Below are positions 25,388-64,000 of a stretch of DNA of 64,000 bases, one piece after another. The position numbers and the translations under genes were made by a program. This stretch comes from Nocardioides sp. Iso805N (GTDB lineage: Bacteria > Actinomycetota > Actinomycetes > Propionibacteriales > Nocardioidaceae): the NCBI RefSeq assembly GCF_000364605.1, contig NZ_KB822577.1:124001-188000 (forward strand). The letters are read 5' to 3'. Every line of letters starts with the position of its first letter. The stretch's first letter is position 1. Under the pieces are notes generated by a model. The model saw only the letters and a list, made by a program, of their open reading frames with translations, was not told the origin of the DNA and did no database searches.

Positions 25388-25552
25388 GGGGGTTTCGCAG
25401 CGTTGATTCGTAGATTTTGGTGGGTCGAGTCGGGAATCGGGCCTGCGAAGCCCACGACTCGGGCCTGCGAAACCCGCGACTCGGGCCTGCGAAACCCACG
25501 ACTCGGGCCTGCGAAACCCACGACTCGGGCCTGCGAAACCCACGACTCGACG
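25388..25552. repeat. 22-bp tandem array with inverted lead-in
   Basis: Five adjoining 22-bp units (25433-25542), CGACTCGGGCCTGCGAAACC plus CA, the first degenerate and the other four nearly identical. GGGTTTCGCAG at 25390-25400 and GGGTCGAGTCG near 25422 are the reverse complement of parts of the unit, so the transcript can fold in several registers. It lies between the convergent crotonase and SDR genes and ends at the SDR stop. Confidence 0.85.
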
Positions 25553-58657: not shown

Positions 58658-58714
58658 GTCGCGGAGCCTACCGGCGGGTAGTTACCGGTAGGTGCGGCAT
58701 AGGTCACATCCGCC

Positions 58715-58780
58715 GAGTCGGGCCTCCGTCCGGGTCGAGTCGGGCCTCCGTGCGGGTCGAGTCGGGCCTCCGTGCGCGCT
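58715..58780. repeat. 22-bp tandem array upstream of DUF1992 gene
   Basis: Three units with 22-bp period, each starting GAGTCGGGCCTCCG (58715, 58737, 58759). The last unit ends just before the -10 box (58783-58788) of the DUF1992 gene. The core is shared with the 25.4-kb array. Confidence 0.85.
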
Positions 58781-58794: not shown

Positions 58795-59316
58795 ATGGGC
58801 GAGGAGGAGTTCGAGGACATCCGGATCGAGCCGCTCAGCGACGCCGCCTCGAAGGCTGAGGCCGAGCAGCGACAGCGCCTGATCCACACCTGGGTCGACC
58901 AGCAGATCCAGCAGGCGATCGCACGCGGGGACTTCGACGACCTCCCCGGCGCCGGGAAGCCGATCGAGGGACTCGGCGAGGAGCACGACCCGGACTGGTG
59001 GCTCAAGAACCTGGTCGAGCGCGAGCGGCTCGTCGTACTCCCGCCGAGCATCCAGCTGCGGAAGGACGACGCCGAGCTCGACGAGCTGCTCGATCGGCAG
59101 GCCACCGAGCAGGCGGCGCGCGAGGCCGTCGAGGACTTCAATGCGCGCGTGATCCGGGCGCGCTACCAGATCCCGACCGGTCCGCCGCTGGTCACTCAGC
59201 CGCGCGATGTGGAGGAGACAGTCGCCGCCTGGCGCGAGCGCCGTACGGCGAGGGCGGTGGCGACTCCGCCTACGCCGCAGCCCGCACCGAGGCGGCGCTG
59301 GTTCCGCAGGCGGTGA
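58795..59316 (+). CDS. DUF1992 (DnaJ-C28-like) protein
   Basis: A 173-residue cytoplasmic protein. VDQQIQQAIARGDFDDLPGA near 34-53, GKPIEGL, and EHDPDWWLKNLVERERLVVL near 62-81, then PPSIQLRKDDAELDEL, are the DUF1992 blocks, found also in the DNAJC28 proteins of eukaryotes. The C-terminus is Pro/Arg-rich and basic (PAPRRRWFRRR). The gene is bracketed by 22-bp arrays in opposite orientation. No function has been established for the family. Confidence 0.87.
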   Translation: MGEEEFEDIRIEPLSDAASKAEAEQRQRLIHTWVDQQIQQAIARGDFDDLPGAGKPIEGLGEEHDPDWWLKNLVERERLVVLPPSIQLRKDDAELDELLDRQATEQAAREAVEDFNARVIRARYQIPTGPPLVTQPRDVEETVAAWRERRTARAVATPPTPQPAPRRRWFRRR

Positions 59317-59374
59317 CGGAGGCCCGACTCAACGGGGACGGAGGCCTGACTCAACGGGGACGGAGGCCCGACTC
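59317..59374. repeat. 22-bp tandem array, inverted relative to the 58.7-kb array
   Basis: Three units of CGGAGGCCCGACTC (59317, 59339, 59361; the middle one with CCT) at 22-bp steps, the reverse complement of the core at 58.7 kb. The array starts directly after the DUF1992 stop and contains the stop and last codons of the convergent MFS gene. Confidence 0.85.
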
Positions 59375-62686: not shown

Positions 62687-62793
62687 AACCGCAGCATGCC
62701 GCATCGCACCGACAGGCCGGGTGACCGGTGTGTGACGAATGCCCGGGTGGGTACCGGCGCAAGCACCAACCACCGACCTGCTTGGAGGCAGCC

Positions 62794-63117
62794 ATGACCG
62801 ATCTTCCCGAAGAGTCGCTCACCGACGAGGACATGACGACGACGTACGCCGGTCCCGCCGACGCGCCCCAGCCCGGCGGCAGCGACGGTGACGGCACGGA
62901 CGGTGATGGGACCGATGGCACCGACGGTGACGGGACTGACGGCACGGATGGTGACGGGACCGACGGCACCGACGGTGACGGGACGGACGGCACGGATGGT
63001 GACGGGACCGACGGCACCGACGGTGACGGGACCGACGGCACGGATGGTGACGGGACCGACGGCACCGACGGCGATGGCACCGACGGCACCGACGGCGTTG
63101 CGGGCGGGCTGTCCTGA
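62794..63117 (+). CDS. Asp-Gly-Thr repeat peptide, candidate modified-peptide precursor
   Basis: A 107-residue, strongly acidic protein. An N-terminal leader-like part (MTDLPEESLTDEDMTTTYAG then PADAPQPGG, residues 1-29) ends in Gly-Gly. From about 30 to 101 there are nine or so units of DGDGTDGT, one per 24 bp, with alternate codon choices forming a 48-bp higher repeat. The tail is VAGGLS. GGAGG precedes ATG 62794. The stop overlaps the start of a JmjC/cupin-type oxygenase by four bases. No signal peptide or known domain. A precursor or substrate of the oxygenase is an inference from coupling and from the leader/core look; a calcium-binding acidic protein is the alternative. Confidence 0.7.
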   Translation: MTDLPEESLTDEDMTTTYAGPADAPQPGGSDGDGTDGDGTDGTDGDGTDGTDGDGTDGTDGDGTDGTDGDGTDGTDGDGTDGTDGDGTDGTDGDGTDGTDGVAGGLS

Positions 63118-64000
63118 GCGCCCTCGACCTGCTGAGTGGGGACGCCCGGCTCTTCACCGAGAAGATCTGGGCGTCCCGCACCCACCTGCACCGCGCCGAC
63201 CCGGCCGAGCTGGTCGGGTTGCTGTCGCTGGAGGACGCCGACCGGTTGCTGACCGCCTCGGCCCTGCGCACACCCGCGCTGCGGATCGCGCAGTCCGGCA
63301 GCGTGCTGCCGGAGAAACGGTTCACCCGGCACGCCACCATCGCCGGCCAGCAGCTCAGCGGCCTGGTCGACCCGGCCAAGGCGCTGGCGCTGTTCCGCGA
63401 CGGCGCGACCATCGTCTTCCAGGGGCTGCACCGTTATCACCAGCCGCTCGCCGACCTGGTCGCCGAGCTTGAGCTGGAGCTGGGCCACCCCTGCCAGGCC
63501 AACGCCTACCTCACGCCGCCCGGTTCGCAGGGCTTCGCCACCCACAGCGATACCCACGACGTCTTCGTGTTCCAGACGGCCGGCACCAAGGACTGGGAGA
63601 TCACCACCGCCCGCGAGGAGACCCCGACCGTCGAGGCGATCACGATGGAGCCCGGCCTCTCGCTCTACCTTCCCACCGGGACGCCGCACGCCGCCCGGAC
63701 GCAGCAGACGGTCTCGCTGCACGTCACGATCGGGATCAACCAGCTCACCTGGCGCGGGCTGCTGCGCCGTACGGTCGAGGGCGTGCTGCCTCCTGACGAG
63801 CACCTCCCGGCCGGCTACCTCGATGACCCGGCCGCCCTCCAGGACGGCCTGGCCGCGCGACTGCGCGAGCTCGCCGACCGGATCGAGGCCGTAGAGGTGG
63901 GAGCCGCCGCCGAGGCGGAGGTACGCCGCTTCCTGACCGCACGCACCCCCCGCTTCGCCGGCGGCCTGCTCGACGCGGTGACCGAGATCCTCGACGCCAC
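63114..64000 (+). CDS. JmjC/cupin-type Fe(II)/2-oxoglutarate oxygenase (3' end outside window)
   Basis: The frame is open to the window edge, 295 codons. The double-stranded beta-helix holds THSDTHDVFVFQ, with iron ligands H144 and D146 (HxD), and the distal His H192 in TGTPHAARTQ. FTEKIWASRTHLHR near 14 and NAYLTPPGSQGF near 131 match cupin-4/JmjC ribosomal-oxygenase-like hydroxylases, which hydroxylate Arg, His, Asn or Asp in proteins. The only start that keeps the N-terminal domain is CTG at 63114, overlapping the peptide stop as CTGA; no ATG or GTG lies in frame nearby upstream. Coupling to the Asp-repeat peptide points to it as substrate. The C-terminal helical part is cut off. Confidence 0.8.
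   Translation, partial: MSALDLLSGDARLFTEKIWASRTHLHRADPAELVGLLSLEDADRLLTASALRTPALRIAQSGSVLPEKRFTRHATIAGQQLSGLVDPAKALALFRDGATIVFQGLHRYHQPLADLVAELELELGHPCQANAYLTPPGSQGFATHSDTHDVFVFQTAGTKDWEITTAREETPTVEAITMEPGLSLYLPTGTPHAARTQQTVSLHVTIGINQLTWRGLLRRTVEGVLPPDEHLPAGYLDDPAALQDGLAARLRELADRIEAVEVGAAAEAEVRRFLTARTPRFAGGLLDAVTEILDA

Follow-up and report, generated by a model that had tools for sequence, protein, structure and literature searches.

At the 3' end of a 64,000-nucleotide stretch of the genome of Nocardioides sp. Iso805N (Nocardioidaceae, Actinomycetota; contig NZ_KB822577.1, positions 124,001 to 188,000), hereafter the window, lies a gene for a small peptide consisting largely of an aspartate repeat. 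Its stop codon overlaps the start of a gene for an oxygenase of the JmjC_2 family, inside which the window ends. In this 4.4 Mb genome, whose close relatives are Nocardioides, the oxygenase gene extends 235 bp past position 64000 and is directly followed by a gene for a Suc_Fer-like protein. Here, we describe these three genes as a cassette that recurs across Actinomycetota, and we consider it likely that they make a multiply modified peptide akin to the ribosomally synthesised and post-translationally modified peptides (RiPPs). The features of the cassette within the window are as follows.

62784 to 62788, forward strand: Shine-Dalgarno motif GGAGG, read from the sequence, 5 nt 5' of the peptide ATG.
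62794 to 63117, forward strand: open reading frame of a precursor-like peptide of 107 aa, matching the peptide profile (E 3.9e-12) and conserved in relatives.
62818 to 62841, forward strand: leader motif LTDEDMTT, a case of the motif L-[ST]-D-[DE]-[DE]-[IM]-x-T conserved in the alignment of relatives.
62884 to 63096, forward strand: Asp-repeat core of 71 aa, made of D, G and T only, with 27 Asp and eight perfect DGDGTDGT units.
63114 to 63117, forward strand: CTGA overlap, read from the sequence, of the peptide stop TGA (63115-63117) and the oxygenase start CTG (63114-63116).
63114 to 64000, forward strand: JmjC_2 Fe(II)/2-oxoglutarate oxygenase of the ribosomal oxygenase (ROX) type, cut by the window end; the full protein has 373 aa and its gene ends at L004:10235, equivalent to window position 64235.
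63543 to 63551, forward strand: H144 and D146, the iron ligands of the HxD motif, unchanged across 120 distinct proteins.
63588 to 63590, forward strand: K159, the probable 2-oxoglutarate ligand, invariant (120/120) and aligned with the corresponding lysine of NO66.
63687 to 63689, forward strand: H192, distal iron ligand, invariant (120/120).

The first-pass annotation of this DNA had proposed a 107-residue peptide, and the reading frame at 62794-63117, preceded by its Shine-Dalgarno motif, bears this out; AGGAGG-like motifs are also found 5' of the peptide genes of relatives. The peptide opens with an acidic N-terminus of about 29 residues, which reads ...QPGGS directly before the core. It had been described as a leader-like segment ending in Gly-Gly. 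The acidity and a conserved leader motif are real, but Gly-Gly is not a conserved leader end and varies across the family. We rejected a Gly-Gly export leader on this ground and because no conserved peptidase or transporter lies nearby. The repeat had also been recognised, but with about nine DGDGTDGT units instead of eight full ones (8.6 copies of a 24-nt unit according to the program TRF). A 24-nt tandem array might in principle be a recent satellite expansion without function. Pairwise comparison of the eight full units speaks otherwise: the nucleotide differences (77/77) are all in the third base of a codon, the first and second bases being identical throughout. Since the differences are confined to third positions, it is the protein sequence of the core that has been kept, rather than the DNA. 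The core is under protein-level selection and is neither a chance product nor a non-coding satellite. Leader and Asp spacing are moreover conserved throughout the phylum, and together these observations leave the satellite explanation hardly any credit.

We searched 246 genomes of the family, 396 of the phylum and a GTDB collection, all of them Actinomycetota, and recovered full-length oxygenases with identities ranging from 100% to about 38%. Wherever the upstream DNA was available, reading it revealed a peptide of like design, with the leader motif and a core in which one or two small residues lie between Asp. Asp accounts for 37% of the residues of 88 distinct cores, and successive Asp are 2 or 3 positions apart in 95.6% of cases, as opposed to 38.7% in shuffled sequences. 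Next to Asp there is almost invariably G, A, S or T, and these interchange freely while Asp stays. It is the only core residue that the DGT cores share with the ADGG cores of a sister group described below and with the other variants, and for this reason Asp would be the likeliest target of a modifying enzyme.

Such a regular spacing, with Asp every two or three residues, is also reminiscent of DxDxDG loops. The peptide could be an unmodified acidic buffer for calcium or another metal, with the oxygenase and the ferredoxin simply being iron enzymes under common regulation and served by it. By family assignment, two of the cassette's three products are indeed iron proteins. Yet Pfam gives no match of these peptides to RTX, TSP3, dockerin or EF-hand repeats, which led us to discard a calcium-binding repeat family as their identity. 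A buffer would furthermore need no separately conserved leader motif, and in many genomes the genes stand in a fixed order with codons that overlap, which points to a direct relation of precursor and enzyme. We therefore regard the buffer as improbable.

The order of peptide, JmjC_2 oxygenase and Suc_Fer genes recurs phylum-wide at oxygenase identities of 38-54%, and the pairing of peptide and oxygenase persists down to 38-45%. Our counts for type-1 loci concern 100 testable distinct loci, in which the peptide was called by an automatic criterion and the remainder read by eye. The script places a peptide upstream of the oxygenase in 98 of them and reading does so in L090 and L110; the peptide at the distant locus L095 is atypical and doubtful. 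A Suc_Fer gene follows the oxygenase in 96/100. When the peptide profile is run over the 246 family genomes, its matches adjoin an oxygenase with two exceptions, of which one (G002) is a 1026-aa open reading frame that is not the cassette peptide and the other (G168) lies at a contig end. Five loci were missed by the profile, and in all of them the peptide is present when the sequence is read, two being at contig ends. No convincing peptide match away from an oxygenase was found by this profile search among the 246 family genomes, where the pairing is thus essentially obligatory. The first-pass annotation had read a repeat substrate beside its own oxygenase as a possible multiply modified ribosomal peptide, had suggested a genome search for the repeat beside a cupin-4/JmjC gene, and had named widespread peptides without the oxygenase as the finding that would count against it. 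The search returned the same pairing across Actinomycetota and the counter-evidence did not turn up in the 246 genomes, so that conservation supports the idea well. A third gene, nearly as constant as the oxygenase, has to be added to the picture. A few type-1 loci are without a recognisable adjacent Suc_Fer gene (L058, L087, L088, L090 and L095). Atypical, sparser Asp cores occur in at least L058, L087 and L090, all three also among these.

That the peptide stop overlaps the oxygenase start was noticed early, but the start codon has to be corrected to CTG. Near the conserved N-terminus the reading frame of the oxygenase offers neither ATG nor GTG nor TTG. A canonical start is first met with the TTG at 63219, 35 codons further, and beginning there would drop residues that are invariant in relatives. 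Hence, the start must be CTG. The same CTG/TGA overlap recurs in 27 distinct loci, again with no ATG, GTG or TTG at hand, and in the window's genome the third gene likewise starts at a CTG overlapping the oxygenase stop (L004:10232-10235). Judged by this recurrence, CTG is a conserved non-canonical start linked to translational coupling, and the overlapping stop and start codons probably couple translation of all three genes in the window's genome.

The oxygenase matches PF08007 (JmjC_2) with an E-value of 1e-18 in Pfam. The HxD...H ligands of an Fe(II)/2-oxoglutarate oxygenase, already pointed out in the first reading, are invariant in the 120 proteins, as is H203 (120/120), and by these residues the catalytic site is intact. 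Profile comparison with the PDB finds NO66 (7e-20) and MINA53 (1e-17), and the best fold matches of the predicted model, which has a predicted local distance difference test score (pLDDT) of 90, are MINA53 (E 8e-24), NO66 and YcfD, all of them hydroxylases of protein residues. The model has the architecture of a ribosomal oxygenase, with a C-terminal winged helix in bbb-aaa order at residues 307-370. The enzyme thus shares with the ROX family (NO66, MINA53, YcfD) the JmjC fold, HxD...H, the 2-oxoglutarate lysine, the helical middle domain and the C-terminal winged helix, but it has only about 20% identity to them and is fixed beside the repeat-peptide and Suc_Fer genes.

These closest solved relatives and the common fold would also fit a quite different function, in which the oxygenase would hydroxylate a ribosomal protein and the acidic peptide would be a regulator, for example an inhibitor that competes with the substrate or mimics RNA, or else an upstream reading frame that serves for coupling. 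The high acidity of the peptide would resemble that of nucleic-acid mimics. But the gene context argues against a ribosomal-protein target. The cassette is missing from about half of the genomes of the family, as one would hardly expect of a housekeeping modifier of ribosomes, and the sequence and copy number of the core vary while the Asp spacing is kept. We know of no ribosomal oxygenase system that includes a Suc_Fer partner. Finally, the leader of the peptide and the C-terminal domain of the enzyme have been lost together, as we describe next. On balance we give a ribosomal target little credence.

The joint loss is seen in the sister group, whose oxygenases are about 40% identical to those above in the catalytic part and sit after a different Asp repeat, EGPADGGAEGTPGVQDGGADGG and variants, with a Suc_Fer gene after the oxygenase in 29 of 31. 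Sister loci L115-L124, L164-L170, L172, L174-L177 and L180-L181 are leaderless (L180 has a degenerate leader, MNDDDTMGT), while L126, L127, L129, L132, L171, L173, L178, L179 and L183 carry a leader. The leaderless peptides correspond to one nested oxygenase clade in which the C-terminal domain is unrecognisable by profile, whereas the leader-bearing ones keep that domain. Leader and C-terminal domain agree throughout the Asp-repeat loci, the leader calls having been corrected by reading. Joint loss is what one would predict if the C-terminal domain reads the leader, and the comparison of these loci suggests that the winged helix probably recognises it. The model does contain the bbb-aaa fold typical of a RiPP recognition element (RRE); a winged helix is likewise present at this place in ribosomal oxygenases, and the fold alone is no proof.

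Type 1, the cassette of the window, occurs in 105 and type 2, the sister cassette, in 27 of the 246 genomes, and both together in none (p 9e-8, with kinship ignored). The type-2 count is set by match strength, with some of the cases read, and mutual exclusion of the two types in one genome is only suggestive. More distant relatives stand beside other Asp-bearing cores, e.g. a short peptide in Streptomyces clavuligerus. On plasmid pSCL4 of this species (L163:4757-6152), a 48-aa peptide with a leader-like SLEPDEIEVI and the core PDFVIADNDPSDPPIAIADPDPFDPVI precedes a related cupin/JmjC gene, without Suc_Fer; this locus is perhaps a small relative of the cassette system.

The third gene (L004:10232-11164) encodes a Suc_Fer-like protein (PF06999, E 8e-18). 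The first-pass annotation had recommended looking past 64000 for modifying or export genes, and a putative redox gene does lie there, directly after the oxygenase; no exporter is conserved. In the predicted model (pLDDT 93) we recognise a thioredoxin-like ferredoxin domain, whose matches to 1m2a and 5abr have a target template modelling score of about 0.7 with a weak E-value of about 0.01. Nearly all cassette members carry the motif CX7CC...HXGGD, in which Asp replaces the second His. We take the protein to belong to the same general family as the Aim32/Apd1 thioredoxin-like ferredoxins, with which it has in common a Cys pair and an HX3 motif in this domain. Yet the cluster motif of Aim32 is CX8C...HX3H (PMC8482512), and nearly all cassette proteins, which are also bacterial and tied to a peptide, depart from this ligand set. 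By its domain, the third protein is classed as Suc_Fer-like and not as an Aim32-type bis-His ferredoxin. It would probably carry a [2Fe-2S] cluster, and the Asp in HXGGD may make for an unusual site. A Pfam match to Asp_Arg_Hydrox (E 0.0017) is below the cut-off and was not used as evidence.

How might the three products work together? We favour a RiPP-like cassette whose oxygenase, guided by the leader, hydroxylates a large number of Asp residues, and we hold this with fair confidence. A precursor with leader and core beside a modifying enzyme, by which RiPP systems are recognised, is found in essentially all loci; we file the cassette as RiPP-like, since the modification of the core is deduced from the genes. 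The peptide consists of a short leader and a long core in which Gly, Ala, Ser and Thr separate Asp residues that recur at intervals of two or three. The JmjC_2 oxygenase would bind the leader, probably via its C-terminal winged helix, and oxidise core side chains at many sites. That it acts on the peptide is, in our view, very probable. That the modified residue is Asp and the reaction beta-hydroxylation, using Fe(II), O2 and 2-oxoglutarate, seems the likeliest chemistry, and we advance it with moderate confidence. The Suc_Fer-like protein would be a redox partner: it may keep the oxygenase iron reduced, carry the hydroxylated peptide through a further redox reaction, or exchange iron with it. 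More speculatively, the likely product would then be a strongly anionic, polyhydroxylated, intracellular peptide that binds metal, and of the metal binding we are rather doubtful.

The near-constant presence of a second redox protein allows for a different outcome, in which the oxygenase or the Suc_Fer-like protein goes beyond hydroxylation and converts Asp (or Thr/Ser) into another group, such as a dehydro residue or a crosslink, or cleaves the backbone there; some 2-oxoglutarate enzymes of RiPP pathways act in this way. The closest solved relatives are hydroxylases, and crosslinking some 27 Gly-flanked Asp would be unusual; we think this unlikely but worth keeping in mind beside the hydroxylation of Asp proposed above.

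Several observations weigh against the RiPP-like interpretation. The system is seen here through genes and models, from which target residue, product and role are deduced. Neither Pfam nor NCBIfam has a model for the peptide. The tree makes the co-loss of leader and C-terminal domain a single evolutionary event, for which reason we did not use a Fisher p for their association. Most RiPP clusters have a protease, exporter or immunity gene, and no such conserved gene lies within about 6 kb of the cassette. Not all RiPPs are exported, and the absence of a conserved exporter or protease over this distance suggests that the product may act inside the cell. The best matches to an IdeR-like box near the cassette are no better than in shuffled sequence, and control by an iron box was dismissed accordingly.

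Related enzymes show what is familiar and what is new in this arrangement. FIH is a JmjC-type enzyme that hydroxylates Asn, Asp and other residues at many sites of ankyrin repeat proteins. Its substrates are folded and encoded elsewhere, whereas the presumed substrate of the cassette is a low-complexity acidic peptide of the same operon. A closer precedent is BipG, a JmjC protein described as the Orn hydroxylase of the biphenomycin RiPP pathway and encoded in the RiPP operon; besides a transporter, that operon includes many further enzymes, and the parts of the source available to us describe no Asp-repeat precursor (PMC12707348). A 2025 survey of RREs reports RRE-JmjC (PF08007) fusions in fish and algal proteins, with bacterial homologues in RiPP-like contexts. 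These join PF08007 to the bbb-aaa peptide-binding fold in the order found in the cassette oxygenase, but neither an Asp-repeat precursor nor a Suc_Fer partner is described in the portions of that survey we could consult (PMC12710340). We found no description of a JmjC/Suc_Fer peptide cassette in the openly accessible literature. By sequence, its mode would resemble that of a RiPP system with a JmjC hydroxylase, while the peptide belongs to no family of Pfam or NCBIfam and the cassette appears undescribed.

Two other elements of the window deserve brief mention. A nitroreductase-M20-MFS operon had been noted divergently beside the peptide gene. Its nitroreductase and M20 genes are where they were said to be, but they are kept in the closest relatives only and are not a conserved neighbour, so we do not count them as part of the cassette. 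Elsewhere, short arrays of 22-bp units, CGAGTCGGGCCTCCGTGCGGGT and the related TCGGGCCTGCGAAACCCACGAC, occupy positions 58714-58776, 59311-59374 and 25437-25549.

If our interpretation is right, this would be a RiPP-like system in which a single oxygenase acts at tens of positions along a peptide of low complexity that apparently remains inside the cell, and a bacterial Suc_Fer protein would gain a defined partner. With its three genes the cassette is compact, and it is common among Nocardioides in culture and their relatives. How the substrate is recognised can naturally be approached through the paired loss of leader and C-terminal domain. More tentatively, there might be a phylum-wide, so far undescribed class of peptides with some 13-37 Asp which a JmjC oxygenase dedicated to them, together with a ferredoxin whose Cys/His/Asp cluster site is unusual, would turn into poly-beta-hydroxyaspartyl metal binders inside the cell or into some other multiply modified product, with no machinery for export. 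Poly-beta-hydroxyaspartate would then be an interesting metal ligand.
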